DNA of 64,000 bases from Dehalococcoidia bacterium (GCA_022822855.1 JAJDYG010000033.1:62001-126000); one strand, 5' to 3'. Positions 3,163-33,176 are shown, counted from the first letter of the stretch. The notes: a model not told the origin generated them from the letters alone. Program-made: numbers and translations.

Positions 3163-3530
3163 TTTCTCACCAGAAGTCGACAAAACCAGCACGAAACTGA
3201 CAAAAACTGTCCACCCGGATCGGACGATCTCCAGCAATACGCTGAACATGCGCCCTGCAGACCCGAATCCAACAAAATTTCTCGCGGAACAGTCCACTTC
3301 CTGGCCCGAACCCCGCCGCTCGCCTCTGCTCGGGCGGCTCGCCTGCCGACCGCGGCCGAACGGATCCGAACAGGACCGAACATCCGAACGCAACCCCGGT
3401 GCTGTAGAAACCTGAAAAAACCTGAAAGAACCTGAAAGCCCGAAACGGACGATCTTCAGCAATACACTGAGGATCGTGCCCAATTGACCCGTGAATCGGG
3501 CCGAAAAAAAGTTGCCCGGAAACCTGAAAA
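3163..3530 (-). repeat. Two copies of a dispersed hairpin element with GAACGG-rich spacer
   Basis: Copy A spans about 3163-3286 and copy B about 3405-3530; each reads as the reverse complement of the copies at 32.7-33.2 kb. Shared blocks include CGACAAAACC, GGACGATCTCCAGCAATAC and AAATTTCTCGCG. In copy B, ACGATCTTCA (3449-3458) pairs with TGAGGATCGT (3468-3477) around a 9-nt loop. The spacer contains CCGAACA-type short repeats at 3355-3390, as does the spacer of the other array. Element ends are approximate. Confidence 0.7.
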
Positions 3531-3701
3531 CCCACCACCGCCGGCGCGATCTCGGCAAATCGCGAACGGGCGATCGTCGCGGGCCCGGCGGCCATACACA
3601 CGCGCCCGGGAATGCGCTCAGGAGTTGATACGCCTGAGCGTCGGCGGCGTGTACGATGCAACAAACCCGGTCGGCGGGCGGCCAGGCCACCTGCGGGCGC
3701 T

Positions 3702-3776
3702 GCGGGAGTAGCTCAGTGGTAGAGCATCTGCTTCCCAAGCAGAGGGTCGCGGGTTCGAATCCCGTCTCCCGCTCCA
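3702..3776 (+). tRNA. tRNA-Gly (anticodon CCC)
   Basis: A complete cloverleaf is visible. The acceptor stem GCGGGAG pairs with CTCCCGC, the D-arm is GCTCAGTGGTAGAGC, the anticodon loop TTCCCAA is closed by CTGC/GCAG, and the T-arm contains GGGTTCGAATCCC. The anticodon CCC specifies glycine (GGG codons). The 3' CCA is encoded (3774-3776). Confidence 0.97.
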
Positions 3777-3859
3777 CCCCGCTTCACCCCGCTTCACCCC
3801 GTTTCACGAGGCAAAGTCCCGACTGACGATCCAGCACAGGCGTAAGTGAGGAAGCACCC

Positions 3860-5041
3860 ATGGAACTGCGATTTTCCGAGTCCGAGGAAACCCTGCGCGG
3901 CGAGGTCCGCCAATTCCTGCTCGACAACATTCCCGAACCCGCGTCCAGCGAAGGTCCGGGCGGCGCTCGTGAGAACGAAGAGGACTTCAACAACGCCGTC
4001 GACTTCAACCGCAAGCTCGCCGACCGAGGCTGGATCGCTCCCGCCTGGCCGAAGGAGTACGGCGGCCTCGGCGCGTCGATCTACGAGCAGATCGTCTTCA
4101 ACGAAGAGTTCGGCTACCACGGCGCGCCCGACACCGGCACCCGAGGCTTCGGCGTCGGCATGATCGGCCCGACCCTGATCATCCACGGCTCCGACGAACA
4201 GAAGGCCGAGTACCTGCCTAAGATCACCTCGGGCGAGCACATCTGGTGCCAGGGCTACTCCGAGCCCGGCTCCGGCTCCGACCTCGCCTCGCTGCAGACC
4301 CGCGCCGTCCGCGACGGCGACGACTACATCATCAACGGTCAGAAGATCTGGACCTCGGGCGGTCACCGCGCCAACCAGATGTTCTGCCTCGTCCGCACCG
4401 ACCCCGACGCGCCCAAGCACCGTGGCATCTCGTTCCTCTTGATCGACGACATCAAGAACACCCCGGGCCTGTCGGTTCGGCCGCTGATCAACATGGCCGG
4501 ACGCCACCACTTCAACGAGGTCTTCTTCGAGGACGTCCGCGTCCCCGCCAAGAACCGCATCGGCGAAGAGAACCGCGGCTGGTACGTCGGCATGACCCTG
4601 CTCGACTTCGAGCGCTCCGGCATCGGCACGACTGCCGGTCAGCGCAAGACGCTCGAAGGCATGACCGAGGAGCTCCAGAACGGCTCGGCCGAAGAGCGCG
4701 AGCGATATCGGCTCGGCCTGTCCGACCTGGTCGTCTCCAACAACGTCGCCAAGTACCTCGGCTACCGCATCGGTCACATCCAGGCGACCGGCAACGTGCC
4801 CAACTACGAGGCCTCGGTGATCAAGATCTTCCAGTCCGAGCTGGGCCAGAAGATCTACAACTACGGGATCAAAATGTTCGGCCTCTCCGGCCAGCTCATC
4901 CCCGAGGAGCCGACCGCCCCCTGGGCCGGCGACATGCCCGAGCAGTACCTCCTCGCCGTCCCCAGCACGATCTACTCCGGCACCAACGAGATTCAGCGAA
5001 ACATCATCGCCACCCGAGGCCTCGGCCTGCCTCGTTCGTAG
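3860..5041 (+). CDS. Acyl-CoA dehydrogenase family protein
   Basis: The 393-residue protein has full acyl-CoA dehydrogenase length. It has the helical N-terminal domain, the flavin-domain signature GYSEPGSGSDLASL followed by NGQKIWTSG, and the C-terminal motif SGTNEIQRNIIATRGLGLPR. It should bind FAD and oxidise an acyl-CoA to the enoyl-CoA, passing electrons to ETF. The position that is Glu in medium-chain enzymes (IYEGT) reads IYSGT, so the catalytic base must lie elsewhere, or the protein may need a partner subunit as in heteromeric family members. Substrate is unknown. A Shine-Dalgarno-like GAGGAAG precedes the start; the gene follows the tRNA by about 85 bp. Confidence 0.9.
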   Translation: MELRFSESEETLRGEVRQFLLDNIPEPASSEGPGGARENEEDFNNAVDFNRKLADRGWIAPAWPKEYGGLGASIYEQIVFNEEFGYHGAPDTGTRGFGVGMIGPTLIIHGSDEQKAEYLPKITSGEHIWCQGYSEPGSGSDLASLQTRAVRDGDDYIINGQKIWTSGGHRANQMFCLVRTDPDAPKHRGISFLLIDDIKNTPGLSVRPLINMAGRHHFNEVFFEDVRVPAKNRIGEENRGWYVGMTLLDFERSGIGTTAGQRKTLEGMTEELQNGSAEERERYRLGLSDLVVSNNVAKYLGYRIGHIQATGNVPNYEASVIKIFQSELGQKIYNYGIKMFGLSGQLIPEEPTAPWAGDMPEQYLLAVPSTIYSGTNEIQRNIIATRGLGLPRS

Positions 5042-5073
5042 CGGCGCAGACCGCCGCCGCAGAGGAGAGCATC

Positions 5074-5499
5074 GTGGAAGTCACGCTCGCCCTCCTCTGC
5101 GATGCCGCTAACACGACACCTGAGGGAAAGTTGAATATCCTCGGGACCTTTGATCGCATTGCCGCGGCCGCCTTTCCTGTCACGCATCCCGCTATGTCAC
5201 TGGTGCTTCGCCTCAGCGCCAGTCCCGCAGAGTTTCGAAGTTAACGGGACCTGAGAGTCGTATTGATGGGCCCAGATGGCCAGCAGGCGGGCGAGATCAC
5301 CGGTCAGCTTGAGGTTGGCTCCTCGGACTCCCCCGGCGCAGACTCACAACACCAGCTAATCTTCGGACTGCCCAACATAAGTTTCCAGGGTGCAGGGCGA
5401 TATGCGTTCCACGTGTTAGTGGGCGGTGACGACAAGGCTCGCGTACCGTTAGAGGTGGTACCTTTCGCCCACGGCGAGGAAGAGACCAATGGCCATTGA
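5074..5499 (+). pseudogene. DUF6941 family protein, interrupted by an in-frame stop
   Basis: The frame opens with GTG after AGAGGAG and reads VEVTLALLCDAANTTPEGKL, then NILGTFDRI, matching the N-terminus of DUF6941 proteins (an LCDAA, GKLN, LGTFD pattern). After LSASPAEFRS there is TAA at 5242-5244. The same frame continues with DLRVVLMGPDGQQAGEI and a typical C-terminal half to 5499. No frameshift is needed: a single nonsense codon separates the halves. It could be a true mutation, a sequencing error, or two pieces with re-initiation at the ATG at 5263. Function of the family is unknown. Confidence 0.7.
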
Positions 5500-5743
5500 G
5501 CTTCGAGAGCGCCGGGAGACAGGGCCTGCATTCGAGGGCTCCGAGCAAGCTGTCCTAAGGGTCAGCGCCAACTTCCAGATCACCGGTGTGTCAGGCGTCT
5601 TTCGCCCTGAGTTCGAGCAGGACAACACCGCGACAGATGAATGGGAGCAGGCCGAGCGCGAAGCTGACGAGGATGTCAGGCTTGGCCGGTACAAGGACTT
5701 CGATTCGCGCGAAGACTTGATGGATTACCTGGACAAGCTCTAG
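5489..5743 (+). CDS. Putative antitoxin
   Basis: The 84-residue acidic protein overlaps the end of the DUF6941 frame by 11 bp and is followed three bases later by the toxin-like frame. The C-terminal half, with RLGRYKDFDSREDLMDYLDKL, resembles the toxin-binding tail of small type II antitoxins. No clear DNA-binding motif is visible in the N-terminal half. The assignment depends mainly on position upstream of a RelE/ParE-like frame. Since that toxin looks broken, the antitoxin may be a relic. Confidence 0.45.
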   Translation: MAIELRERRETGPAFEGSEQAVLRVSANFQITGVSGVFRPEFEQDNTATDEWEQAEREADEDVRLGRYKDFDSREDLMDYLDKL

Positions 5744-5746
5744 GTC

Positions 5747-6024
5747 GTGGCGCGGCGTTATCGACTCCTGACTCGTTTCGAGCGGTCACTCCAGAGGAAG
5801 AATAGCGGTCACCGCGCGATGCACGAGCAGTTCTCGAGGCCGTGGATGCGATTCTTGATGAGCCAAGACGTCCCGGACTGAGCATCCACCGGTACAAGGG
5901 GCGCCCAGGGGTCTGGGGGGCCTACGGCAGCCGATCGGTGCGTCTCAACTTCGAGCGCGACGGCGACCTCATCACCTTTCGCAACAACTGCCGACACGAG
6001 ATCATTGACGATGGACACGTGTAG
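5747..6024 (+). pseudogene. RelE/ParE-superfamily toxin, frameshifted
   Basis: A GTG-started frame gives VARRYRLLTRFERSLQRKN, a usual N-terminus for RelE-like toxins. The remainder (DARAVLEAVDAILDEP, then HRYKGRPGVWGAYGSRSVRL and FERDGDLITFRNNCRHEI) is in another frame, entered between about 5803 and 5825. Together they have the length and order of a small mRNA-interferase-type toxin: a helical hairpin, a basic LKGRPG-like loop, a central strand and a final FRNxxxHE motif. One base gained or lost would restore it. As it stands the product would be truncated and inactive. Confidence 0.6.
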
Positions 6025-6062
6025 CCCAACCGTTTGAGGCCGCTGCGCTCTTAGGACTATGT

Positions 6063-7664
6063 TTACCCCTCCCAGAGCTGACCATTGTCGGTCTGGTTCG
6101 TGATCGCGAACCAGTAGGCGTTGTGGCCGCCGACCCGGGGCAGAACCTCGCCGTCGGGACCGAGCAGACTGTCCTCTCGGATCGTCCAGATCCCGCCGTC
6201 GGTATCGGTCAGCGTGCCAGCCGATAGGTCGGCGAACTCGAACCGCACGTCGCCGGCCTCGTATGACCGCCCGCCCGTCCCGTCGGCGGTTGCGATCACG
6301 ACGATCGGCAAACCACCAACCTCATCCTGCGCCAACCTCCGCTCCGCCAGGAGTTCGATCGGGTAGGCCGTCAGCGCCTCGCCCACCCGCACCGCGTAGA
6401 CATCGTCCTTCTGCGCCAAACGCTCGTCCGCGATCGGCACATTGAACCACGTCTTGGGGCTGTTGAAGTACTCGTTGTAAGCGACGCCCGATCCGTAGTT
6501 GCGGGCGAAACCGGTCTCGATACTGAGCACCGTCGTGTCGGGATGTCGCGCGTGCCACTCGCCCCATGTCGTCACAACGACCGGCAGGACCTTCAGCCGG
6601 ATATCCTCGCCCACCAGCGGACCCCAGGCGGGCTTGCCGCTGAACTGGTTCCAGAGCGTGCGTGTGTTGCGGTCGTACATCAACTTGTTCGATCGATAGA
6701 GCAAACCGCTGGTCCCGAAGCGGTAGACCTCGCTGCCGACACGACCGTCGAACAGGATCGGCGATCCGCAAAGCGTGCAGTAAGCCAACGAGACCGGAAC
6801 GCCGCCGATCGTATCGTTGACCATCTCGTGCCAGGCGATGATTCGGATCGGATACGCGCGCGCGTCGCCGTCGATCTCAACGCCGACCACGATGTCGCTG
6901 TCGAGAATCCACCCAGCCGCCTCGTCCGGGAAGATCTGCGCCGGGAACTCGAGCGGCGGAATCCCGTCGACGCGAACGCCGCCCCACATGATCTCCCGTG
7001 CGTCGATCACGATCGGTTCGTCGGGATTCATCATCGCCGCCATGTCCTCGAACTGGCTTCCGAACAACGCCTGCTTGAAGCGCAGATAGGCCGGTGTGGC
7101 CGAGTCCATCGGATCAAACTTGAAGATCTCCGGATACTCGTAGACCGTCCGGTGATCCTCCCCGTAGCGACGCTCCAGATAATCCAGGGCCTGTCCCCAG
7201 TACGGACTGGGAAACGCCGCCAGGTCGATGACGTACTTGTCGATCGCCGGCGAGTCTGAGGCGAGCAGTCGATCAAGCAGGAGTTGTCCTGCTTCCGGAA
7301 TCGGCACGTAGCGACCGAAGAACCCGTCTACCGGCCCCCAGAAGATCAGCTGGGACATGTCCACGTCGTCGGGGTGGAACGGCAAGTCGGCTTGCTCCGG
7401 CTGCGTGGATCGTTCTTGGGGCGCCGCGGCTGCATTCGAGTTCCCCGATATAGGCTGTTCGGCCCTCGATTGCGAGTGCGGGTCAGATTGTTGACTGCCG
7501 GTCCTCTGCTGCAGCGGCCGAGCCTGGGTCTGTGCTTCTGTTCCCGCGACGGAGGCTTGCTCAACCTCTGCATCAACTGTCTGATCAGACGGCTGACTCA
7601 CTTCCGCGCCGCTACATGACGTGACCAGGAGAACCAGGCTGGCCAGCAACATCACCTGCCTCAC
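6063..7664 (-). CDS. DUF3179 domain-containing lipoprotein
   Basis: The protein has 533 residues. The N-terminus carries a short hydrophobic signal ending in a lipobox (LLVTSC), so it is probably a lipoprotein. A Gln/Ser/Pro-rich linker of about 90 residues follows, then a long folded region. The C-terminal half contains the DUF3179 hallmarks AWHEMVND, CTLCGSPILFD, WNQFSG and TGFARNYG. The family is of unknown function; the conserved CxxC pair may bind metal or be redox-active. I chose the GTG start that overlaps the upstream stop codon (GTGA); an ATG four codons later is possible. It is the second gene of a two-gene minus-strand operon. Confidence 0.75.
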   Translation of the reverse strand: MRQVMLLASLVLLVTSCSGAEVSQPSDQTVDAEVEQASVAGTEAQTQARPLQQRTGSQQSDPHSQSRAEQPISGNSNAAAAPQERSTQPEQADLPFHPDDVDMSQLIFWGPVDGFFGRYVPIPEAGQLLLDRLLASDSPAIDKYVIDLAAFPSPYWGQALDYLERRYGEDHRTVYEYPEIFKFDPMDSATPAYLRFKQALFGSQFEDMAAMMNPDEPIVIDAREIMWGGVRVDGIPPLEFPAQIFPDEAAGWILDSDIVVGVEIDGDARAYPIRIIAWHEMVNDTIGGVPVSLAYCTLCGSPILFDGRVGSEVYRFGTSGLLYRSNKLMYDRNTRTLWNQFSGKPAWGPLVGEDIRLKVLPVVVTTWGEWHARHPDTTVLSIETGFARNYGSGVAYNEYFNSPKTWFNVPIADERLAQKDDVYAVRVGEALTAYPIELLAERRLAQDEVGGLPIVVIATADGTGGRSYEAGDVRFEFADLSAGTLTDTDGGIWTIREDSLLGPDGEVLPRVGGHNAYWFAITNQTDNGQLWEG

Positions 7665-8455
7665 GTGGTCATTCGTCCCTTCGATGAGCCTTGTTGGTCG
7701 CGCCGCGTGCGTTGGCGGCCCGGGAATCGCCATCGAGATCCTGGCCGCGACACTGACGTCGTCAATCTAATCTCGCGCACGCGAGCCTTGCTCCGGGACA
7801 AGATCAGATCAACCCGCTTACCGTCGGCGTCTGTCGCATCGAGTAGGCAGAGAAAGGCGCCGCTGTACTCGTGCAGCACTGCTTCGTAACATTCGACCTC
7901 AGCACCCGACACTTGCACGACCACCCGTTGACCCAGGTTGGCCTCCAGCACGGGGCTGTAGTAGGCCGTGAGCGCCTCGACGCTTGATTCGCGCACAATT
8001 GTGAGCTGCGTGCCGGTGCCGCCGGCGCCGCGCGCCAACGTGCTTACGGCCTCACCAAGCGCGTCGCGTATCGCGTTGGCCCAGTTGCGAATCACTCGTG
8101 CGCTACGACGCCACGGGCCCGGATGCACCACGATCCGCATCCGGTGTTGCCGTTCCCGCAACTCCTCCGGGGTCAGGTCGTCCACGTAGCGTCTAATCGC
8201 TGTCAGGCCAGCGTACTCATCGTCGTGAATCACATAGCCAAACTGCTCTATCCCGCCGAGCGGCTCGAGAATGAAGGCATTCCCATACACTCGCAACCGC
8301 CCACCACGCACAACCTGTTCCGTCAATTCAAGCCGAACGGGGAAGCCTCGCCACAACTTGAGACAGGGATCAGTGCGTCGGCGAGAGAGAGCCACGCCAA
8401 CTACCGCCGTCGCCAGCAATGCCAGGATGGTGAGCGTCAGGACGCTGTCGAACAT
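7661..8455 (-). CDS. Hypothetical membrane-anchored protein
   Basis: The 264-residue protein has one N-terminal membrane segment (about residues 5-24) followed by a basic stop-transfer RRR and a soluble domain of about 230 residues. A distinctive stretch is VVVQVSGAEVECYEAVLHEYSGAFLCLLDA in two strands, resembling a small barrel, but I recognise no family. It overlaps the DUF3179 gene by four bases, so the two products may cooperate at the membrane. The last 30 residues are rich in Arg and Gly and may be disordered. Confidence 0.5.
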   Translation of the reverse strand: MFDSVLTLTILALLATAVVGVALSRRRTDPCLKLWRGFPVRLELTEQVVRGGRLRVYGNAFILEPLGGIEQFGYVIHDDEYAGLTAIRRYVDDLTPEELRERQHRMRIVVHPGPWRRSARVIRNWANAIRDALGEAVSTLARGAGGTGTQLTIVRESSVEALTAYYSPVLEANLGQRVVVQVSGAEVECYEAVLHEYSGAFLCLLDATDADGKRVDLILSRSKARVREIRLTTSVSRPGSRWRFPGRQRTRRDQQGSSKGRMTT

Positions 8456-8534
8456 TGTTTCAGCCTATCGCGATTTCCGGCTCCCCCACACCGAGTCGGC
8501 CCGCTAGTCTCGCCCAGAAGCGAAGGAGTGCTAG

Positions 8535-9323
8535 ATGCCCGAACCTCCCCTCCTCTACGAACCCGACAGGGCGAACCGCCGGGCGCTGATGACGTTCAAT
8601 CGTCCCGAGCGGATGAACGCCATGAGTCCCGACCTCCAGGTCTTGATGCGCGAGGCGATTGAAGAGTTCAAGAGCGACCCGGACGTCTGGGTCCTGATCG
8701 TGACGGGCGCGGGCGGGCGAGCGTTCTGTGCCGGGGCCGACCTGGGCAGCACGATCCCGAACGCGACGCAGGCCACACGCGACGAGCCGCTCAAGGTCAA
8801 CGAGACCCGAGGCTTGCATGATGTGCACAAGCCGGTGATCGCCGCCGTGAACGGCTACTGCATCGCCGGCGGGCTCGAGTTCATGCTCGGCACCGACATC
8901 CGCGTCGCTGCCGAGCACGCCGAGTTCGGCCTGCAGGAGGTCCGCTGGGGGATCATTCCCATCGGCGGATCGCACATTCGGTTGCCCCGACAGATTCCCT
9001 GGTGCTGGGCGATGGAAATCCTGTTGACCGGCCGGCGGCTCTCCGCTGCCGAGGCGTTCCAGTGCGGCCTGGTCAATCGGGTCGTGCCGGCCGACCAACT
9101 GATGGAAACGGCCAACGGCATCGCCGATCTGATTTGCCGCAACGGCCCGCTGGCCGTCCGTACGGCCAAGGAGATCGCCGTGCGCGGCGCGATGGGCATG
9201 TCCTGGGAACAGGCCTGGAGTATGGAATCGCTGCTCGGCGCCCGCGCCTTCGGCAGCGAAGACGCGATCGAAGGACCGCGAGCCTTCATGGAGAAACGCG
9301 ACCCTGTCTTCAAGGGTCGCTAG
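8535..9323 (+). CDS. Enoyl-CoA hydratase/isomerase (crotonase) family protein
   Basis: The 262-residue protein is a full-length crotonase. The oxyanion-hole segments FCAGADL (residues 64-70) and NGYCIAGGLE (106-115) are present. Glu115 and Glu135 (GLQEVRWG) sit 20 residues apart, matching the two catalytic glutamates of rat enoyl-CoA hydratase. Hydration of an enoyl-CoA or a related reaction is therefore plausible. GAAGGAG precedes the ATG. It is the first of a run of four same-strand genes and is followed 29 bp later by a close paralogue, which suggests duplication in place. Confidence 0.88.
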   Translation: MPEPPLLYEPDRANRRALMTFNRPERMNAMSPDLQVLMREAIEEFKSDPDVWVLIVTGAGGRAFCAGADLGSTIPNATQATRDEPLKVNETRGLHDVHKPVIAAVNGYCIAGGLEFMLGTDIRVAAEHAEFGLQEVRWGIIPIGGSHIRLPRQIPWCWAMEILLTGRRLSAAEAFQCGLVNRVVPADQLMETANGIADLICRNGPLAVRTAKEIAVRGAMGMSWEQAWSMESLLGARAFGSEDAIEGPRAFMEKRDPVFKGR

Positions 9324-9352
9324 ACCAGAGCAATCACAGAGGGAGGCGCGAG

Positions 9353-10141: not shown

Positions 10142-10163
10142 GCTGAACCAGGGAGTAACCGCA

Positions 10164-10424: not shown

Positions 10425-10463
10425 ATCTCATCGCTGCATTTGCGCCTGTAGTCGAGCGAACTC

Positions 10464-11615: not shown

Positions 11616-11640
11616 GCCGGGTCGCGGCAAGCCCCCTCCC

Positions 11641-12070
11641 TTCCGATGCCCCGCGCTCCGACGCGGGGCCCAGAGCAACCAACCCCGCCAGGGCAACACC
11701 GTCCGCCTCACCTCAGACGACACGACCCACCGATCCCAGTCCCCGCTTCATGCGGGGACCCGCTCCTTCCCCGTCACGTCTGCGCCACACCCATTTCCCC
11801 TCCCCCTTCCGATGCCCCGTGCTTGACACGGGGCCCAGAGCACCAAACCCCGCCAGGGCAACACCGTCCGCCTCACCGCAAACGACGCGACCCACCGATC
11901 CCAGTCCCCGCTTCATGCGGGGACCCGCTCCCTCTCCGCCACGTCTGCGCCACACCCATTTCCCCTCCCCCCATTCCGATGCCCCGTGCTTGCCTGCCCC
12001 CGGCCTGACCGGGGGACACGGGGCCCAGAGCAACCAACCCCGCCAGGGCAACACCCTCCGTCTCAGCAAC
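11641..12070 (+). repeat. Tandem array of a 166-167 bp unit containing two palindromes
   Basis: Unit 1 is 11641-11806, unit 2 is 11807-11973, and a partial unit 3 runs from 11974 to about 12070. Each full unit carries a CCCCGTGCTTGACACGGGG-type palindrome (11648, 11814) followed by CAGAGCAACC-type sequence, then a GTCCCCGCTTCATGCGGGGA palindrome (11739, 11904). In unit 3 the first palindrome (11981-12024) is split by 23 bases at 11993-12015 that form their own hairpin. The 569-bp gap 11616-12184 holds no other recognisable feature. Confidence 0.85.
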
Positions 12071-12184
12071 AACGCCAGCCACACGATCCCACACCCCCTT
12101 CCGCCAACTCCGACACACCACATCAGAACGCCCATTCGCTACAGTGACCAGAACGCCCGTTCCCTCCGACGAAAGGCCCACCTC

Positions 12185-12892
12185 ATGCACATCTCCCCCA
12201 AACAACGCCGACGCAGCGTCCGAGCCCACTACCTCCGACAGCGAGGACACTCCCTCCAGCACATCGCCGGCACCCTCAAGACCTCCCTCGCCACCGTCCG
12301 AGCCGACCTCAAGCTCGCCGAGACCCACTGGAGCAGCATCGCCGCCGCCACAGCCGACGACCTGCTGCTGGAATCCCTCCACCGGCTCAAGCTCCGCCTC
12401 AACCTCGCCCTCACACAGGACGCCGTGGCCAACAACGCCAAGCACCTCACGCCCGCCGAGTACCTCCGCGCCCGAGACGCCCAGGAAACTCAGCTCAACA
12501 GCCTCGCCCGAGAAATCCGCCGAACCGTGCAGGATGTCCACCGCCGAGCCGAACAGCGACCCGACCAACCAGAACTCTTCGACGAAGAGCCGGAGGACCA
12601 GCAAGAACTAGCAGAAACCACACCAAAACTTTCACAAATTGAACCCCTCGATTCCACGATCTCCAGTCCAGAGCAGGAGATCGTCCGATCTGAGGCCGAA
12701 GAAGAAAATTCTCTTCCAGAACCGCCCCAAGCACCCGAGATCGACCCCGTGATCAGCGAAGCGATCGAGCTGTTCCCTCACCTCAGACGCAAGTCCGACG
12801 AGCAGATCCTCAACTTCCTCGAAAAACTCACCGACCCCAACGCCAAAACCCCGGAGATCCCCATCCCCGCCTACGCCGAAGCCGCAGGCTAG
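12185..12892 (+). CDS. HTH protein with acidic repeat-derived linker
   Basis: The protein has 235 residues. Residues 4-45 (RRRSVRAHYLRQRGHSLQHI, then a second helix TSLATVRADLKLAE) look like a homeodomain-type helix-turn-helix of the kind in transposase N-termini and phage terminase small subunits. The middle is helical and charged. Residues about 143-177 are acidic and low in complexity, and are encoded by a copy of the dispersed hairpin element. The C-terminus ends in a short helical domain (SEAIELFPHLRRKSDEQI). GAAAGG precedes the ATG. The stop codon shares CTAG with the converging gene. Function is not known; DNA binding is likely. Confidence 0.55.
   Translation: MHISPKQRRRSVRAHYLRQRGHSLQHIAGTLKTSLATVRADLKLAETHWSSIAAATADDLLLESLHRLKLRLNLALTQDAVANNAKHLTPAEYLRARDAQETQLNSLAREIRRTVQDVHRRAEQRPDQPELFDEEPEDQQELAETTPKLSQIEPLDSTISSPEQEIVRSEAEEENSLPEPPQAPEIDPVISEAIELFPHLRRKSDEQILNFLEKLTDPNAKTPEIPIPAYAEAAG
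12612..12713 (-). repeat. Copy of the dispersed hairpin element inside a coding sequence
   Basis: Read on the minus strand this segment aligns with the copy at 32865-32984 over about 100 bases: GAGAATTTTCTT, GACGAT-TCC, GGAGATCGT, GGGGT, GTGAAAGTTT and GGTTT occur in the same order and nearly the same spacing. ACGATCTCC (12656-12664) and GGAGATCGT (12676-12684) form a perfect 9-bp stem with an 11-nt loop. The element lies in frame in the HTH gene. Confidence 0.7.
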
Positions 12893-17461: not shown

Positions 17462-19360
17462 ATGACACGACACTGGACACGCCTACGCCGCTCGCGTTTG
17501 AGCCGACGATCATTGCTGAAGGCATCGGCCCGAGCGGGCGTCGGAGCTGCCGGTCTTGCGCTGGTCGGCTGCGGCGATGATGACGACGACCAGCAGTCCG
17601 TCGCTCAGGCTCAGCAGCAAGACCAGGATCAGCAGCAGGCCGCGCAACAGCAAGACCAGCAGCAGGCCATGCAGCAACAGGCCCAGCAGCAACAGCAGGC
17701 CATGCAGCAGCAAGACGATCAGGCCGAGCAACAGGCCATGCAGCAGGAGCAGCAGGAGCAGTCCGCCGCCGAAGCTCAGGCCCAGCAGGAAGAAGAGCAG
17801 GCGGTCGCCGACGACAACATCGATTACAACGCGACAGCGATCGGCGCGTATGGCGCCTTCCCGCAGATTCTCGACCAGGGCAGCGCACTGGCTCGCGGCG
17901 GGCAATCGGCCTCCAACAACTACCACTTCGGCGCGGTGTTCCCGCTCGATCCGTTCGGCAGCGCTGTGCCCGGCGGCCTGGCCGAGTGGGAGTTCGTCGG
18001 CGCCGAGGCGTTGATCGTGCGGATGAACGAAGGCCGAACGTTCCACAACGGCGATGCAGTGACCGCCGAAGACATCAAGTTCACCATCGACCGTTTGACC
18101 GGCAAGGCGGAGTACAACCCGGAGTACAACTCGGCCTGGACCGGTGAGCTGAGCTGGACCGGCGACAACGAGTTGGTCGACGAAAACACGCTGCGGATCG
18201 AGCAGGGCGCGCCAAGCGTCGACGCGGCCAACAGTCTCGCCCTGGGCGGCTTCCCGGTCTTCCCCAAGAACTACCTCGAGGAAGTTGGCGACGACGGCTA
18301 CGGCCAGTTCCCGGTCGCGACCGGCTCCTTCAAGTTCGTCGAATGGTCTCCCGACGAGTACATCAAGAGTGTGCGCAACGACGACTACTTCAACGATCGC
18401 GAGTACGCCTATGCGCCCAGGCTGCCCTACCTGGCCGGCTTCGAGGCGAGACTGATTCCGGAAATCGGCGCTCGCGTGTCGGCGCTGGAAGCCGGCGAAG
18501 TCGATCTCGCCAACTCGATTCCGCCCGATCTGGCGGTGCCGCTGGGCGAGACCGGCGACTACAACGTCTTCTATCACCCGGCCCAGCGGGGTCTGCACAT
18601 CAAGCTGCCGATGACGATCGAGGAAGACCCTTACAACCCCGGTCAGCCCAACCCCTGGCGAGACCGCCGCGTGCGGATCGCCGCTAACCTCGCGGTCGAT
18701 GTCGATGCAATCACACAGAACATCATGACCGGGCGTGAGAACTACACCTACACACTCTCGTCAGGCCAGTTCGGTTTCCCCGAGGAACTGCCCGAGCAGC
18801 GCTGGGGCTACGACCCCGAGGAAGCGAAGCGATTGCTCGCCGAAGCGGGCTATGAGGACGGCGTTGAGACCGATCTGATCTACCTCGCCGGTCTGTACAC
18901 CAACGATCAGCTCTTCATGGAGGCGATCGCCGAGATGCTGCGCGAGGTCGGTTTCATCGTCAACCTGATTCCCGAGGACATCTCCAAATTCCTCGGCGAG
19001 GCGCGGAACAAGGAACTCACCGCTCCGTATCTCTTCCCGCAATCGGCCGGTTTCACCTCGATCGGTTCGATGGCCATCTCCGTGGACAGCGCAGCGACCT
19101 ATGAGCACCGCGTCGAAGTGCTCAGCGACGAGCGGGCCGAGGTCGACCGGCTGATCGCCGAGGCGAAGACCGAGTTCGACACTGAGCGTCGCAAGGAACT
19201 GCTGAGCGATCTCGTTCGCATCCACTACCTGGAGGCGTCCTGGATATTCCTCTTCGAACTGGTTCAGACCCACGTCGCTGCTTCGCGACTGCACTGGGAC
19301 CCGTACTTCCTGCAGCCGCCGTCGGTCGAGCTCTGGAACCTGAGGTCGATGAAGACCTAG
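17462..19360 (+). CDS. ABC transporter substrate-binding lipoprotein (family 5, Tat-exported)
   Basis: The protein has 632 residues. The N-terminus has a twin-arginine signal (LSRRSLLKASARAG) ending in a lipobox (LVGC), then GDDDDD and a Gln-rich linker to about residue 115 (mostly CAG/CAA repeats). After that comes a full family 5 (peptide/opine/nickel type) binding domain, with the FHNGDAVTAEDIKFTIDRL motif and LLAEAGYEDG near the end. It would deliver an organic solute to the permeases encoded just downstream. A TTGACA lies at 17410-17415 without a convincing -10. A paralogue with the same leader starts at 42825. Confidence 0.92.
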   Translation: MTRHWTRLRRSRLSRRSLLKASARAGVGAAGLALVGCGDDDDDQQSVAQAQQQDQDQQQAAQQQDQQQAMQQQAQQQQQAMQQQDDQAEQQAMQQEQQEQSAAEAQAQQEEEQAVADDNIDYNATAIGAYGAFPQILDQGSALARGGQSASNNYHFGAVFPLDPFGSAVPGGLAEWEFVGAEALIVRMNEGRTFHNGDAVTAEDIKFTIDRLTGKAEYNPEYNSAWTGELSWTGDNELVDENTLRIEQGAPSVDAANSLALGGFPVFPKNYLEEVGDDGYGQFPVATGSFKFVEWSPDEYIKSVRNDDYFNDREYAYAPRLPYLAGFEARLIPEIGARVSALEAGEVDLANSIPPDLAVPLGETGDYNVFYHPAQRGLHIKLPMTIEEDPYNPGQPNPWRDRRVRIAANLAVDVDAITQNIMTGRENYTYTLSSGQFGFPEELPEQRWGYDPEEAKRLLAEAGYEDGVETDLIYLAGLYTNDQLFMEAIAEMLREVGFIVNLIPEDISKFLGEARNKELTAPYLFPQSAGFTSIGSMAISVDSAATYEHRVEVLSDERAEVDRLIAEAKTEFDTERRKELLSDLVRIHYLEASWIFLFELVQTHVAASRLHWDPYFLQPPSVELWNLRSMKT

Positions 19361-22921: not shown

Positions 22922-22929
22922 CCATCCCA

Positions 22930-23005: not shown

Positions 23006-23026
23006 TGGAGCGCTCGGGGATATCGC

Positions 23027-24262: not shown

Positions 24263-24375
24263 CTGGAACCTCCAGCCCTGATCGGGCAGCGTGTCGCCAT
24301 GTCGGACGACGTGGACGAGGCTAGTATGCCAACGCGTGCGCGCCTGCGGGGCGCTGCATCGTTGAGAGGGCAATC

Positions 24376-26772: not shown

Positions 26773-26801
26773 GCGTCAACGGAGAGGGCTGAGGAGCGGA
26801 C

Positions 26802-27764
26802 ATGCCCAAGTACGTGATGCTGCCCCCGATCGACGATGACATCCGCAAGTGGGCGGCGAGGATGCGGGAAGAAATTCCCGGTCTTGATGTGGTGATCGTC
26901 GAGGACGAAGCCGACGCGGCACTGGAACTCGCCGACGCCGACGGCGCCTACGGCTGGGTCTCGCCCGAAGTTCTGCCCAACGTCGAGCGGCTGCGACTCC
27001 TGCAAAACCCCTTCGCCGGACCACCGGTCGGCTGGTACTACCCGGAGCTGGCCGAGCATGCGGTCGTGGTCAGCAATCCGCGCGGGATCTACTCCGATCA
27101 CATCGCCCACCACATCCTGATGTACATGCTGGCGCTCTCGCGCGGCCTGCCCTACTACACCGCCGCTCAGGCCGACGGCCGCTGGGACAATCGAGCCCGC
27201 AAGCGCGGCTATATCGATCTGACCGAATCAACGGTCTTGATCAACGGCGTCGGCGGGATCGGCGCCGAGGCCGCCCGCCTCTGCGCCGCATTCGGTTGCC
27301 ATGTGATCGGCGTCGATCCGAGTCCCTACGGAGAGTTCGCTGGGGATCTCGTGTCGCCGTCCGAGCTCGATGCGCGCCTGCCGGAAGCGGACTTCGTCGT
27401 TACGACGGTTCCGCACACGCCCGAGACCGAGTTCATGTGGAACGCGGAACGCTTCGCGGCGATGAAGAACACGGCATACTTCATCAACATCGGCCGCGGG
27501 ATGACCTGCAAACTCGACGACCTTGTCGATGCGCTCGACAACGGCGAGATCGCCGGGGCGGGACTGGACGTGTACGAGATCGAACCGTTGCCCGAGGGCC
27601 ATCCGCTCTGGCAGATGGAGAACGTGATCCTGACGCCGCACATCGCGGTCGCCGACGCGGAGAACATCCCCGAGCGGCGCTTCGAACTGATTCTTGAGAA
27701 CGCGCGGCGGCTCGTTGAGGGTCGCGATTTCGTTAACGTCGTCGACAAAGAGAAGTGGTACTAG
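26802..27764 (+). CDS. D-isomer-specific 2-hydroxyacid dehydrogenase family protein
   Basis: The 320-residue protein has the NAD-binding fingerprint GVGGIGAEAARLCAAFG. The catalytic triad of the family is visible: Arg in INIGRGMT, Glu in YEIEPLPEG and His in TPHIAVAD. It should interconvert a 2-keto acid and a D-2-hydroxy acid with NAD(P)H. The N-terminal half is shorter than in formate or glycerate dehydrogenases but normal for the glyoxylate/hydroxypyruvate reductase branch. GAGGAGCGGAC precedes the ATG. It sits between the fused CoA-transferase and the zinc dehydrogenase. Confidence 0.88.
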   Translation: MPKYVMLPPIDDDIRKWAARMREEIPGLDVVIVEDEADAALELADADGAYGWVSPEVLPNVERLRLLQNPFAGPPVGWYYPELAEHAVVVSNPRGIYSDHIAHHILMYMLALSRGLPYYTAAQADGRWDNRARKRGYIDLTESTVLINGVGGIGAEAARLCAAFGCHVIGVDPSPYGEFAGDLVSPSELDARLPEADFVVTTVPHTPETEFMWNAERFAAMKNTAYFINIGRGMTCKLDDLVDALDNGEIAGAGLDVYEIEPLPEGHPLWQMENVILTPHIAVADAENIPERRFELILENARRLVEGRDFVNVVDKEKWY

Positions 27765-27799
27765 AGCCGCTGGCCGGAATGTTGGAGATCGGGCCCGTC

Positions 27800-28852
27800 A
27801 TGAAGATCGTGGAGATGTACGGCGATTCGCGCGTCGGCGTGATCGAGGTGCCTGAGCCGGAGCCGCGGGACAATTGGGTCCTCGTCAAAGTGATCGCGAG
27901 CACGATCTGTGGAACCGAGGCGCGTACGTATCAGTACGGTGGCTCAACATTCGATTCCTCGTACACCAACTCAGGGCACGAGGCGGCCGGCATCGTCGTA
28001 AAGACCGGTCCAACCGCCCGGATTGCGGCAGGCACGCGCGTCGCCGTCATCGCGCACATGGGCGAGCAGTGTGGTCAGTGCTGGTTCTGTCACCAGGGCC
28101 TCTGGCTGCTCTGCACTGACATCGCTGATGGCGGTGCGGAGTACGACGGCACGCACGCGCAGTACATTGTCCGGCCCGACAGTCACTGCATCCCGATGCC
28201 CGACGACGTGCCGTTTGAGATCGGCTCGATCCTGGTCGACGCCGTCGGCACGCCCTACCGCGCGATCCGCCGGCTGGCTGTGAATGGATTCGACACGGTG
28301 CTGATCACCGGTCTGGGTCCTTTGGGAGCGTCAGCGGCGATCATTTGCGAGAGGCTCGGCGCGCGCGTGATCGCGAGCGAGCCTGCCGAGTATCGTCGCA
28401 GCCTGGCTCGCGAGTACGGCGTCGACGTCGCGATCGATCCCATGTCGGAAGACGCGTTGGAACGGGTGATGGAGCTCACGGATGGTCGCGGGCCCGACGT
28501 CGCGCTGGACTTCACCGGCTACACCGAGCCGCAGATGCTCTGCCTCGACTCGGTCAGGGTAGGCGGGCGGGTCGGCTTCATCGGTCTCAAGTACGACGAG
28601 ACGCCGGACGGGCCGGTGCCGCGACCGACACCGGTGACCGTCGCCGGTCACTTGCTGCCCAAGGAACTGACCCTGATCGGAAGTTGGAGCGTCGCCCCGC
28701 ACGAGATGCTGGAGCTGTACGAGCTGGTCCAGAAGGGTCTGCCGGTCGAGAAGCTGATCACGCACCGGTTCAGCATCGACGACGCGCAGGAGGCGTACGA
28801 AACGGCATTCAACCAGCGCGGCTGCAAGGTGATCATCGATCCGTGGTCCTAG
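27800..28852 (+). CDS. Zinc-dependent medium-chain alcohol dehydrogenase family protein
   Basis: The 350-residue protein has the medium-chain dehydrogenase layout. The catalytic zinc ligand Cys is in ASTICGTEAR and the following pair in SGHEAAG. Four cysteines for the structural zinc are in GEQCGQCWFCHQGLWLLC. The nucleotide-binding fingerprint is ITGLGPLGASAA. It should oxidise an alcohol or polyol with NAD(P). The ATG at 27800 was preferred over an upstream GTG-type extension because it fits the family start KIVEMYGDSRVGV. The stop shares CTAG with the converging fused CoA-transferase gene. Confidence 0.88.
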   Translation: MKIVEMYGDSRVGVIEVPEPEPRDNWVLVKVIASTICGTEARTYQYGGSTFDSSYTNSGHEAAGIVVKTGPTARIAAGTRVAVIAHMGEQCGQCWFCHQGLWLLCTDIADGGAEYDGTHAQYIVRPDSHCIPMPDDVPFEIGSILVDAVGTPYRAIRRLAVNGFDTVLITGLGPLGASAAIICERLGARVIASEPAEYRRSLAREYGVDVAIDPMSEDALERVMELTDGRGPDVALDFTGYTEPQMLCLDSVRVGGRVGFIGLKYDETPDGPVPRPTPVTVAGHLLPKELTLIGSWSVAPHEMLELYELVQKGLPVEKLITHRFSIDDAQEAYETAFNQRGCKVIIDPWS

Positions 28853-31524
28853 CGGATCACTTCTTCAACCAGCAACTGGGTGAACTCTTCCTCGCTCAGG
28901 CCGAGTTCATTTCGGTAGACCTGCTCGTTGTGCTCTCCGAAGAAGGGCGCACGGCGGATCGGCAAGCGCTCGCCGTTCCAGAGGAACGGCTGATTCTGCG
29001 CCATGAACCTGATCCCGACCGGGTGGTCGAACTCGTGGAAGAAGCCCTGCATTGACGGATCGGTCTCGACCAGGTCCTCGATGTCCTCATTTGGGCCGGC
29101 CGGAACGCCCGCTGCTTCGAAAAGTGTCGTCGCCTGCCAGGCATCCTGATTGCAGGTCCACGCGGTGATCGCCGCCTCGATCTCGTCCTCGGCGGCCTTG
29201 CGCCCGGCCAGCGTGCGCAGATCATCGCGCCCGGCCAGGTCGTCGCGACCGATCACACCGCAGATCTCGAGCCAGTCGACTGTGTTCCGGGCGCTGAGCG
29301 CCAGCCAGCGATCGTCTCCGGCGCAGCGGAAGAGTCCATGCGGCGACATCTCGGGCGAGCGGTTGCCGCGACGTTCGGCTGTGACTCCGTTGGCGAGTTG
29401 CTCGATCAACTCCGTGTCGAGCAGGTGAATGCCGGCCTCGTACTGGGGAATCTCGATCTCCTGCCCGACGCCGGTGCGGTCGCGCTGGATCAGCGCGGAG
29501 ATGATCGCCGTCGCGGCCAGCGGGCCGAGCGTGAAGTCGGTATGCAGCAGCACCCCGGTCGGCTTGCGGTCCGCCGCGCCGGTGTGGGCGGCCAGTCCGC
29601 AGAGGGCGACCACGCTGTTGCCGATCCCCTTCCACGACGCCTTCGGTCCCCAGGTCCCCATCACGGGCAGGCTGCAGACGACGATCCGGGGATTGATCTT
29701 CTTCAGGTCGTCGAACCCCAGCCCCAGCCGCTTCATCACGCCGCCGGTGAAATTGTCGGTCACCACATCGGCCTCGCGGATGAGGTCGTAGGCGACGCGC
29801 AATCCGTCGGGCGCGCCGAGATTGAGGTTGATGCTGCGCTTGTCGGTGTTGCAATCCTGGAAAAACGCTCCGGTCTCGATCGTTGGCGGATCATGGGCGG
29901 GCAACGCTACCCGAAGCGTGTCGATCCGGGCGTCGGACTCGACCTTGATCACATCCGCGCCGAGATTCGCCATCAATTCCGTCGTCAACGGCCCCGCCGC
30001 CTGCCAGCAGAAATCGATGACTCGGATGCCATTCAGGGGGAGGTCGTCCCGGTTGATGGCATCAGGCGGCCCCCCTCTGCCTGCGGCATCTCCCCCCGCG
30101 GAGCGGGGGGAGAGGGAAGAGGCCCCTGCGGCATCTCGCCTCGCGGAAGGAACGGAGAGGGAAGAGGCCCGGGCGGCATCTCGCCTCGCGGAAGGAAAGG
30201 AGGGGGAAGAGGCCCCTGCGGCATCTCGCCTCGCGGAAGGAAAGGAGAGGGAAGAAGCCCGGGCGACATCTCGCCTCGGGGAAGGACGGGAGAGACGACT
30301 GCGGGAGGAAGGTCCGGCAACCAGGCCGCTGGCAACCAACCGCTCGTACTCCGCAGAATCCACGCCAAGCAACTCCGACAGCACATCTGACGTATCCGCA
30401 CCCAACGTCGGCGCCGGGCGACCGACCGGCTGGTAGCCGGTCGAGTGGATTGGCAATCGGGGCAGGTCGATGTTGCGGTCGAACTGCGGATGTTCAACCG
30501 AGAGGAATGCCCCTCGCTCATGCAGATGCGGATCCTCGACGATGTCGCGGGCTGAGTTCACCGGCACCGCCAGGAAGCCCCGGGACTGACCCTCGTAGCA
30601 CAGCTCCTCCCGATCCAGCGAGGCGCAGGCTCGCTGAAACGCCTGGTGAGTCTCGCCGCCCCATTCCGGGATGTAGATGTCGCCCGGATACTCGGCTCCG
30701 ATGATGCCGTCGTAGCCCGAACGCTCGTAGAGCCATTGACCGAACGCGGCCCAGCGTTCGTGGGTGTTGGGTGTTATGCCGAAGGTCAGCCAACGACCGT
30801 CCCTGGCCTGCAGCAACGAGGAGATATCGCCCCCCGGACGGAACGCCTTCTCGCCCATCTGCCGCCACATGTTCTCGTTGGCGAAGTGGATCGTGGTCGA
30901 GAGGATCGCTTCCTGCAGCGAGATGTAGGCATGACTCGCGCGGACGCCGTTGCGCCGGTCGTAGAGCATCGCCACGCCGGTCGCTGCCGCGACCTGGCTG
31001 GCCTGCTTGTAAGCAAGCTTGCCGGCCGGATAGTCGGGAGCGACATCAGGGAAGCCCAAACCCTGCATCAAACCGCCCGCCGCAACGCCGACGATGTCCG
31101 ACGCCGGCAGACCTTCGCCGCCGCGCCGCGTCACCACATCGATCACGCCCAGATGCGGATGCACTCGTTGCAGGCGTTCGCGGTCATAGAAGCGGCGCTC
31201 GTCTGCGCTCTTGTCCAACGGCGCGAGCAGCACGTCGGCCGAGGCGAGCAGCCGATCGATCAGATCCCACGCGCCCGGAGCGTCACAATTGATCGCCAGG
31301 CTGCGCTTGCCCGCGTTGTAGAGCAGATGCCGCAGCCCGCTCTCGATATCCGAGCGATCGTCCAGGTGCGGCCCGTTGATCCGCAGCGCGTCGCCCGATG
31401 CCGATTCAACCCGGATCACATCCGCTCCGAAGTCGGACAGCCAGCGAGCGCCCAGGGCCAGGCACTCGTCGCTCAGGTCGATCACGACCGAGCCCGCCAG
31501 GGGAAGATCGGATTGCGCCATCAA
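28849..31524 (-). CDS. Fused two-domain CaiB/BaiF CoA-transferase with repeat-derived linker
   Basis: The protein has 891 residues with two class III CoA-transferase domains, about residues 5-400 and 493-891. The first half lacks the catalytic Asp: the aligned position is near Tyr172-Lys173 in GKLAYKQAS. The second half keeps it (Asp663 in HTDFTLGP). The linker (about 406-480) is a run of 15-residue repeats such as ASSLSFPSARRDAAG, encoded by 45-bp units grown from a C-rich palindromic repeat. It overlaps the crotonase upstream by ATGA, so the two are co-translated. It probably activates an acid that the crotonase then processes. Confidence 0.87.
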   Translation of the reverse strand: MMAQSDLPLAGSVVIDLSDECLALGARWLSDFGADVIRVESASGDALRINGPHLDDRSDIESGLRHLLYNAGKRSLAINCDAPGAWDLIDRLLASADVLLAPLDKSADERRFYDRERLQRVHPHLGVIDVVTRRGGEGLPASDIVGVAAGGLMQGLGFPDVAPDYPAGKLAYKQASQVAAATGVAMLYDRRNGVRASHAYISLQEAILSTTIHFANENMWRQMGEKAFRPGGDISSLLQARDGRWLTFGITPNTHERWAAFGQWLYERSGYDGIIGAEYPGDIYIPEWGGETHQAFQRACASLDREELCYEGQSRGFLAVPVNSARDIVEDPHLHERGAFLSVEHPQFDRNIDLPRLPIHSTGYQPVGRPAPTLGADTSDVLSELLGVDSAEYERLVASGLVAGPSSRSRLSRPSPRRDVARASSLSFPSARRDAAGASSPSFPSARRDAARASSLSVPSARRDAAGASSLSPRSAGGDAAGRGGPPDAINRDDLPLNGIRVIDFCWQAAGPLTTELMANLGADVIKVESDARIDTLRVALPAHDPPTIETGAFFQDCNTDKRSINLNLGAPDGLRVAYDLIREADVVTDNFTGGVMKRLGLGFDDLKKINPRIVVCSLPVMGTWGPKASWKGIGNSVVALCGLAAHTGAADRKPTGVLLHTDFTLGPLAATAIISALIQRDRTGVGQEIEIPQYEAGIHLLDTELIEQLANGVTAERRGNRSPEMSPHGLFRCAGDDRWLALSARNTVDWLEICGVIGRDDLAGRDDLRTLAGRKAAEDEIEAAITAWTCNQDAWQATTLFEAAGVPAGPNEDIEDLVETDPSMQGFFHEFDHPVGIRFMAQNQPFLWNGERLPIRRAPFFGEHNEQVYRNELGLSEEEFTQLLVEEVIR
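30068..30309. repeat. C-rich palindrome and five 45-bp tandem units in a coding sequence
   Basis: CCCCCCTCTGCC...GGCATCTCCCCCCGCGG at about 30069-30115 is the reverse complement of the intergenic C-rich repeat (compare 56342-56387). Units with the phase GGCATCTC start at 30085, 30130, 30175, 30220 and 30265, exactly 45 bp apart. The first contains the unchanged palindrome; the later four have diverged (GCCTCGCGGAAGGA). A 45-bp period keeps the frame open and encodes the 15-residue linker repeat. Confidence 0.9.
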
Positions 31525-32303
31525 TCGAGAGTAGGTTCGTACGGGTGTTGGCGATACAGGTCGCTCATCCGGTGCGTGATCAGCTGCATCCGAAGGTCGT
31601 CATCGAGATGCGGCCAGAGCGAACGGTTGATCGATTCCTTCAAGACCCCGAAGTAGCCGTGCCGCTCCTGCCCCATCGCGGCCAGACGGTTGGCCAGCTC
31701 ATCCACTTCCTCGCGCAGCTTGCCCGGCTCGGCCACGCTGGTCACGAGACCCAGCTCCGCCGCTTCCGTCCCTGAGATGAATCGGTCGTCGAGGATCAGC
31801 CGCGTCGCCTGCTTGAGTCCCATGTACTTGGGCAGAAACGCCGTCGCCGGGATTACCATGCGTAACTTCGCGTCCGGGTCGGCGATCGCATAGTCCGAGG
31901 CCAGCATCAAATCGAACCCCGAGCCCATGCAGTAGCCCTGCACCTGCGCGATCACCAGCTGCGGAATCCGCCGCAGCAAGGACTGCAACCGGAAGTAGGG
32001 GTGCCGCTCGAGGTTGAAGGCGGCGATGTGCGGCGCGTGATACGGATTCTTCCAGGGATAGTCGGGAATCGATCCGTCCCCGCCCTCCGACACGTCATCG
32101 CCCGAACAAAACGAGCGTCCCTCGCCGGCCAGGACCAGAACCTGGACGGCCGGGTCGCGCCCGACCCGGTTGATGACCTCAATCATCGCGTCGCCGACCT
32201 CGGTGTTGATCGCATTGTGTCGCTCGGGACGGTTGATCGTCAGCCGTGTGACCGGCCCATCCTCAACGATGAGTTCTCTGTGCTCTCTGGGCTTGCTGGA
32301 CAT
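31521..32303 (-). CDS. Crotonase-family protein lacking hydratase glutamates
   Basis: The 260-residue protein has a crotonase fold, with the oxyanion segments FCSGDDV and QGYCMGSGFDLMLASDYAI. The two catalytic glutamates of enoyl-CoA hydratase are not kept: the first is Asp (GFDLM) and the second lies in KLRMVIP without an acid. It may therefore catalyse an isomerase, hydrolase or lyase reaction. It is first in a minus-strand pair with the fused CoA-transferase (four-base ATGA overlap), which suggests both act on the same CoA ester. Confidence 0.85.
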   Translation of the reverse strand: MSSKPREHRELIVEDGPVTRLTINRPERHNAINTEVGDAMIEVINRVGRDPAVQVLVLAGEGRSFCSGDDVSEGGDGSIPDYPWKNPYHAPHIAAFNLERHPYFRLQSLLRRIPQLVIAQVQGYCMGSGFDLMLASDYAIADPDAKLRMVIPATAFLPKYMGLKQATRLILDDRFISGTEAAELGLVTSVAEPGKLREEVDELANRLAAMGQERHGYFGVLKESINRSLWPHLDDDLRMQLITHRMSDLYRQHPYEPTLD

Positions 32304-32365
32304 GACTCGTCTCCAATGTCTGCGGCGAAGGCTAGGGCGTGTTCACACTAGCCCCATTCCACGTC

Positions 32366-32531
32366 GCCCCGTGCTTGACACGGGGCCCAGCCCCCGACGC
32401 TCGCGAGGAGCAACGCGGTCATCATTGGCTCAACGGTGGAGCGGGCGGACTTACGCGCGAGCATCGAGGTGGGGCCAAGGTCACTTCGCGCACACACTTG
32501 GGCGCTCTGGGCCCCGTGTCAAGGACGGGGC
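32366..32531. repeat. Inverted pair of palindromic repeats (REPIN-like)
   Basis: CCCCGTGCTTGACACGGGG (32366-32386) faces CCCCGTGTCAAGGACGGGG (32511-32531) with about 125 bp between, the same spacing as at 18-183. The sequence before the second arm (GGCCAAGGTCAC, GCGC, GCTCTGG) is the reverse complement of the sequence after the first arm at 39-76, so the repeat extends about 60 bp. Confidence 0.7.
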
Positions 32532-32683
32532 ATCGATCGCTTGCGGGATCGCGATTGGCGTGGGCGGTTCCGACCCGCATCGACTTGCGCCGAAATGGAT
32601 CATCCTGCTGAGACGGAGGTGGGAACACGCCCTAGGGCCTGGCCAATGCGCGCGACGGGTTTGGGGAGGTGTTTAGCTGCTCA

Positions 32684-33176
32684 GAGAAATTCTCCAGTCG
32701 CAGGCGTTTGCGGGACGACCGCATGTGTTTAGTGGGAGATCGTGAGTTCGGCGTGTTCGGGTCTGTTCGGTTCTGTTCGGTTCTGTTTGTGTTCGCCCAA
32801 ACTAGCCTGAACGCCGAGGGGGGTTGGGAACGGCGGCAGAGCGCCCGGACTCGGCTGGAGCGCTGAGAATTTTCTTTCGGCGGCGTTCTGGCGACGATGT
32901 CCAGTGTTTTGCGGGAGATCGTCGATTCTCGGGGTGCGAAAAGTGAAAGTTTGGTGATGGTTTTGTCGGTCTGAGGCCAGAAATCGGAGCGGCCTGCCGA
33001 GTCCGGCAAGAGGATGGATCGTCGCATAGTGGGCCAGCTTGACCTGGAACGGAGACTTTTTTCGTTGGGGGCAGTTGGGGGGCGATCTCCAGTGTTTTGC
33101 GGGAGATGGTCGATTCTTGGGGGTGTGAAAAGTGAGAGTTTAGTGATGGTTTTGTCGGTCTGAGGCCAAGAAATGA
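32684..33176 (+). repeat. Array of three dispersed hairpin elements
   Basis: Copy C is about 32684-32757 (partial), copy D 32865-32984 and copy E 33051-33176. D and E share AGTGTTTTGCGGGAGAT and a long block from GTGAAAG/GTGAGAG through TGATGGTTTTGTCGGTCTGA. In D the arms 32893-32902 and 32914-32923 form a 10-bp stem with one mismatch around an 11-nt loop. Between C and D is a run of GTTCGGTTCT repeats (32757-32800). The order element, GTTCGG tract, element mirrors the array at 3163-3530. Confidence 0.75.

Follow-up and report, generated by a model that had tools for sequence, protein, structure and literature searches.

The stretch of DNA considered here, referred to as the window, comprises 64,000 nucleotides (positions 62001-126000 of JAJDYG010000033.1, assembly GCA_022822855.1) from a Dehalococcoidia bacterium (Chloroflexota) whose genome of 2,874,954 bases lies in 42 contigs and is 95% complete. 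The window holds six copies, e1 to e6, of a short dispersed element that a first-pass annotation had described as a dispersed hairpin. Two groups of copies, e1/e2 and e4-e6, lie in non-coding insertions (cassettes), and the two arrays exist on opposite strands as that annotation had said. The remaining copy, e3, lies in frame inside a gene for a helix-turn-helix (HTH) protein, and related HTH genes also carry the module in frame, so the element is not restricted to intergenic DNA. The DNA examined consists of stretches around copies of the element or of an associated promoter box, together with one 400-kb sample from genome G017 of a sister genus.

The three loci of the window

The features are given below, with each copy assigned to a type according to the short words repeated in its tail.

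2700..3640, no strand assigned: approximate extent of the insertion bearing e1 and e2, with the gene that ends at 2694 on one side and the tRNA promoter on the other (gap comparison)
3018..3052, plus strand: promoter-like site before the e1/e2 cassette, with TTGCTC at 3018-3023 and box AGTATCTTTGTTCT at 3039-3052 overlapping a -10-like TATCTT (sequence reading)
3178..3291, minus strand in the model, reading toward the plus-strand downstream gene: e1, C-type, core at 3224-3252 (profile match and scan)
3357..3381, plus strand: F tract of three CGAAC words at a 10-bp period between e1 and e2 (pattern match, 1 mismatch)
3403..3517, minus strand: e2, B-type, TTTCAGG words (profile match)
11616..12892, plus strand: HTH-gene insertion with upstream hairpin repeats (gap comparison; repeat boundary at the stop codon)
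12150..12163, plus strand: box AGAACGCCCGTTCC upstream of the HTH gene (sequence; compare the lexA box AGAACGCAAGTTCC)
12185..12892, plus strand: HTH gene, 235 aa, C-type subfamily (paralogs, family scans, structure model)
12612..12716, minus strand: e3, C-type, in frame in the HTH gene, where the encoded linker is predicted to be disordered (profile match; predicted local distance difference test score, pLDDT, <50 at residues 129-184)
32340..33385, no strand assigned: approximate extent of the insertion bearing e4-e6 (gap comparison)
32671..32788, plus strand: e4, F-type, GTTCGG tail (profile match; words at 32755-32789 on the minus strand)
32866..32969, plus strand: e5, C-type (profile match)
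33049..33158, plus strand: e6, C-type (profile match)
33335..33369, minus strand: promoter-like site of the e4-e6 cassette, with TTGACC at 33369-33364 and box AGTACGCTTGTTCT at 33348-33335

Copies e1 and e2 read toward a tRNA and an acyl-CoA dehydrogenase gene, and e4-e6 read toward an enoyl-CoA hydratase gene on the minus strand. Promoter-like sites of the class found at 3018..3052, directly after which an open reading frame (ORF) begins (3053-3415), also occur ahead of other cassettes.

Copy number and anatomy of the element

With e5 alone as a blastn query against its own genome, 42 matches were obtained at E<=1, and a sequence-only profile built from 41 copies, most of the six window copies among them, found about 88 copies at E<1e-5, including all six window segments. 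These numbers indicate a high-copy family and not a chance resemblance, which confirms the six copies of the first-pass annotation as far above chance and bears out its expectation of further copies in the same genome. About 70 copies are dispersed, mostly ahead of genes that do not belong to the HTH family, and the non-coding ones are grouped in 52 clusters (36 single, 13 double and 3 triple). That no known family was recognised in the first reading also stands, as the sole match reaching threshold in an Rfam scan of the window was the tRNA, with none to the element, and a limited literature search found no description of it.

Conservation is concentrated in a core of 22 nt, an AT tract before it and a series of words after it. 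Read in the orientation of e5, the unit opens in some types with two words; the AT tract GAGAATTTTTTCTT comes next and is separated by about 20-30 nt from the core CCAGTGTTTTGCKGGRGATCGT, and a further gap of about 10 nt leads to a tail of 3-5 words with a 10-bp period. The words define types A (GTTCAGG), B (TTTCAGG), C (GTTCAATTTGTGAAAGTTT and relatives), D (GGTTGG) and F (GTTCGG). The window copies are not of one uniform type: e1, e3, e5 and e6 are C-type, e2 is B-type and e4 is F-type. On the gene-distal side of many units stands a further tract, made up of three GTTCGG words (CGAACA on the opposite strand). When up to 2 mismatches are allowed and overlapping matches are included, its pattern occurs 73 times in the genome, and the reversed control gives 1 match.

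The HTH gene family that carries the module

The 235-aa HTH gene at 12185-12892 has about 20 relatives in the genome, several of them truncated at contig ends, and its repeated unit has a sharp right end at the stop codon. The module is found at the equivalent position in diverged paralogs. Counting this and other species, more than 40 HTH genes have it in the linker-encoding stretch in one codon phase, and the phase of the core is the same in nearly all of the HTH genes having a core, which a few members (e.g., L190 and L191) do not recognisably possess. Word type tracks HTH subfamily across species. SEC-C proteins with ATVHADLRLLE have B words (one SEC-C protein carries A), ATVR proteins, which make up the main subfamily, have C words, and the SHATVL-like subfamily has D words; this typing was done partly by eye and one D-type row was mis-sorted by the script.

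Scans of the HTH proteins against Pfam, NCBIfam and PHROGs gave weak generic HTH matches and SEC-C, and no match to a catalytic family. A structure model of the HTH protein (mean pLDDT 73.9, with only 7 sequences behind it) comprises the HTH, a long helical hairpin, low-confidence residues 129-184, which correspond to the module, and a small helical end. In fold, the HTH domain is similar to the DNA-binding domain of DeoR (0.8-1.3 A over 43 residues), with a non-significant E of about 1.5, and a Foldseek search of the PDB with the model returned nothing below E 0.001.

Insertion, conservation and distribution

The non-coding copies are insertions relative to orthologous empty sites. The empty sites that the first-pass annotation had proposed as proof of insertion are present in relatives. 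At the e1/e2 site the gap between genes is about 1170 bp versus about 200-300 bp in 13 relatives, with the insertion ending just before the conserved promoter of the tRNA gene. The gap is about 1280 bp at the HTH-gene site versus about 15-30 bp in most relatives, and about 1000 bp at the e4-e6 site versus about 100-150 bp in five relatives (G005, G009, G010, G012 and G013). Some relatives hold other insertions at the window sites, as does G001 at the e4-e6 site; there (L055, the ECH-HpcH site that in the window genome, G000, holds e4-e6) the insertion is repeat-rich and contains an MPNPYHF-type small gene. Among 13 further loci that were compared, for which a concatenated query of 16 gene starts served to locate the orthologous sites, four cassettes (L013, L014, L020 and L025) are also present in G006, and others are absent in G006, or in G011 and G004.

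At the four shared insertions, identity is 92.1% (n=380) within the words, core, A-tract and box and 69.0% (n=1270) at the remaining positions of these stretches; the motifs were marked by pattern on the G000 sequence only, after the alignments had been seen, so the Fisher p of 8e-23 serves only as a guide. The contrast is strong in three of the loci and weak in L025 (96% versus 92%).

A search of 61 genomes showed high element numbers only in the genus of the window genome. HTH matches occur in 10 of the 15 genomes of this genus and in G017 of another genus. Across the 15 genomes the counts of elements and HTH genes are correlated (Spearman rho 0.82, p 2e-4, kinship ignored), where element counts are those among the best 59 candidates per genome, hence at least 59 at the top, and some genomes, G003 and G013 among them, are fragmentary. 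The five genomes without an HTH match have 0-6 elements, the eight with 2-21 HTH matches have from 36 to at least 59, and G011 has 4 HTH matches and 10 elements. The element-poor genomes do not form one clade in a two-protein tree.

In the sister genus, the HTH genes of G017 have about nine CGAACA words at a 10-bp period in the linker and lack the core, and a further gene, an ORF at G017:C1 ~331997-332100 (L288 to L269 region) whose N-terminal part is unrelated to the HTH family, has CGATCA words at a 10-bp period and a C-terminal end similar to that of the G017 HTH proteins. The CGAACA-array pattern gave 96 matches in G017 and at first seemed dispersed there, but the matching G017 loci that were retrieved sit in HTH genes. 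Within the 400-kb sample, which is without annotated HTH genes, a single array was found, inside a different ORF, and no dispersed cassettes. Dispersal in this genus was rejected as unsupported. These observations, from one genome, suggest the hypothesis that word arrays inside such genes predate the dispersed cassettes.

Gene context and the promoter box

Where the neighbouring genes are co-directional, 28 clusters have the element in the orientation of those genes and 2 in the opposite one (p 9e-7), and the median distance from an element to a co-oriented downstream gene is 90 bp, based on heuristic gene calls (long ORFs whose GC3 exceeds GC2) and not on a trained gene finder. The downstream genes include those for SRP54, ribosomal protein L10, glutamyl-tRNA synthetase, YajC and H+-pyrophosphatase, as well as the DNA-repair proteins UDG, UvrB and an HhH-GPD glycosylase.

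A box, AGWAC-N4-GTNC, occurs close to a -10-like hexamer upstream of many cassettes. A box score of at least 9 is reached upstream of 18 of 53 cassettes versus 3.1 expected from shuffles, two of the 18 being one box viewed from the overlapping loci L001 and L002. Other species, with 8 of 20 cassettes versus 1.1 expected, provide the fairer test because the first set supplied the examples on which the scoring pattern was based. The pattern AGAACNNATGTNCNNATANNAT, which combines the box and the -10 hexamer, has 25 matches in the genome versus 0 for the reversed control; for at least 10 of these an element follows 58-200 bp downstream, and most of the others precede small genes with acidic C termini. 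The box of the genome's lexA promoter is AGAACGCAAGTTCC, many HTH genes have AGAAC-N4-GTTC or close variants, and the cassette boxes are variants of the GAAC-N4-GTTC type (e.g., AGTACATTTGTGCT and AGAACCCATGTCC). The factor that binds the promoter box may be LexA, which is one candidate, an HTH protein or another factor.

Other repeats and small genes were observed in the course of the analysis. At 56478-56859 (plus strand) a box promoter, AGAACAAACATCCGCATATCAT, precedes a gene for a 108-aa protein (MPNPYHFRARMDRLW...EDDDPL), and related multi-copy small proteins with acidic ends are encoded behind similar boxes at L225, L233, L236, L238 and other loci. A dispersed hairpin repeat around CAGTCCCCGACTTGTTCGGGGACCCGCTC (window positions 2760, 11737, 11902, 22928 and 53850) is common beside HTH genes. 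The repeat CCCCGTGCTTGACACGGGGCCCAGA (14-43, 158-187, 11660-12074 and 32366-32531) usually precedes HTH genes and cassettes and shares their orientation, and TCTCCCCCCGCGGAGCGGGGGGAGATG (30087, 48543, 53895, 56341 and 56759) lies in places within open frames. Gln/Ala-rich repeats at 17602-17799 and 42944-43118 are common to two large ORFs.

Interpretation and alternative explanations

The element may tentatively be regarded as an operator-like DNA module that provides type-specific arrays for a lineage-specific, amplified family of HTH proteins. This interpretation is favoured because word type tracks subfamily, the words have helical spacing and the motifs are kept at shared loci. The correlated counts of elements and HTH genes, the co-orientation with neighbouring genes, the enrichment of the box ahead of cassettes and the DeoR-like fold also count in its favour. 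The HTH proteins would bind the words, as the correlation between word type and subfamily suggests, and the cassettes would have a regulatory effect. Each HTH subfamily carries its own module type in the part of the gene encoding the predicted disordered linker, and copies would have spread as non-coding cassettes, many behind a box-bearing promoter, to sites upstream of other genes, with at least some of the inserted cassettes being retained by selection. The cognate HTH proteins would align along the words, which are spaced in helical phase, and modulate transcription into the adjoining gene, and would act on their own genes too. Several observations weigh against this interpretation. The agreement between word type and subfamily could result from mere shared descent within one gene, 11 of the 52 clusters do not share the orientation of the next gene, the target genes have mixed functions, and the conservation contrast depends on motifs marked after the fact, on one of the two sequences, at only four loci. 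In addition, the arrays in the G017 HTH genes, with no dispersed cassettes in the sample, indicate that dispersal is not necessary to the system.

A bolder version of the operator interpretation, and a speculative one that is rather unlikely in its entirety, is a self-spreading regulatory network in which HTH paralogs carry internal recognition arrays, box-promoter cassettes wire dozens of genes to the family, and new word types arise with new subfamilies. Should the HTH proteins indeed bind the words, the genus would offer a natural case of a transcription-factor family whose binding sites multiply and diversify along with it, with empty sites and several stages on view in 15 species, and the assembly of new regulatory networks from mobile sites would become directly testable. 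The system also shows a constraint at the level of DNA that is kept inside a coding region for a predicted disordered linker.

That the element is purely selfish and non-autonomous, comparable to a miniature inverted-repeat transposable element (MITE), a Correia element or a Rickettsia palindromic element (RPE), is plausible because insertion is well shown, though as the whole explanation it appears somewhat improbable. The HTH proteins or a recombinase would recognise its ends, and co-orientation with genes would reflect selection against antisense promoters. Clean insertions with empty sites in close relatives, copy numbers from 0 to at least 59 between species of one genus, the recent amplification of the HTH gene itself with its sharp right end, and tandem units of two to three copies all agree with this explanation. 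It does not account for the orthologous copies that retain words and core as their flanks decay; moreover, no transposase turned up, although no genome-wide search for one was made, and no terminal inverted repeats or target duplications were noticed by eye at the few junctions read, in the course of which no systematic search was conducted. The operator and selfish explanations are compatible, as a mobile element can carry operators.

Homology of the element to the 3' part of the HTH genes, together with the hairpin repeats and GAAC-type box found upstream of both, would also be expected if the cassettes were inserted HTH genes that had lost most of the coding region and left a promoter and 3' part to decay. 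Such an origin is improbable given that no remnant of the HTH domain is found between promoter and element at the dispersed loci, the promoters of cassettes and HTH genes are alike only in the box, and conservation at the shared loci is unexpected for decaying remnants.

Still less probable is a structured RNA or RNA leader with a functional stem-loop, a possibility raised in the first-pass annotation, which placed a stem-loop at the centre of each copy. Neither e1 nor e4 has a proper stem. Across 41 copies the ten proposed stem pairs are formed in 75.1% of cells, so that most copies can form part of the stem, but the value is 75.4% when the 3' letters are redealt and 324 of 500 shuffles pair as highly as observed. 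No compensatory changes were detected in the stems of these copies (covariation 0.141 versus 0.143 in shuffles), nor is a palindromic structure conserved across them. The right arm, GGRGATCGT, is nearly invariant and the loop letters are kept, whereas the left arm is much less conserved and breaks freely. A fixed orientation with the gene and an upstream promoter do suggest transcription, but with pairing at shuffle level, one arm variable and no match in Rfam, structured RNA was set aside.

A conserved peptide-coding repeat, giving small proteins or protein tails, is very improbable even though the module is in frame within HTH genes and several C-type cassettes are open from the promoter onward (e.g., window 3053-3415), for third codon positions are not the more variable in dispersed copies, a test by which this explanation was set aside, a stop interrupts the HTH frame in 16 of 20 B-type copies, and L014 orthologs differ by indels of 1 and 4 nt. 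The absence of a third-position excess and the L014 indels place the constraint on the nucleic acid and not on a peptide.

Comparison with known systems

The Correia elements of Neisseria are MITEs, short dispersed repeats that lie mostly immediately upstream of genes and carry sigma70-like promoters (PMC10969869). The element described here is similarly short, dispersed and located ahead of genes with promoters; it differs in that no terminal inverted repeats or target duplications were noticed at the few junctions read by eye, and in having a module that is in frame in an HTH family and several word types with a 10-bp period. RPEs, of about 100-150 bp, occur in intergenic DNA as well as in frame within genes (PMC10969869), as does the present element. 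RPEs enter many unrelated genes, whereas the coding copies found here lie in one HTH family (not all 88 copies being settled), and the palindrome is not conserved here. REP/RAYT systems pair a palindrome of 20-40 nt with a RAYT transposase encoded in the genome, and they too differ from the present element in that its palindrome is not conserved.

LexA/SOS boxes are of the GAAC-N4-GTTC type (PMC3323433). The lexA promoter and many HTH genes of this genome carry boxes of that type, from which the cassette boxes deviate.

Operator arrays of the OmpR/PhoB type consist of direct repeats spaced near 10-11 bp. The putative arrays described here resemble them in that direct words follow one another in helical register ahead of genes, but the HTH proteins, unlike OmpR and PhoB, are not response regulators by any match found.

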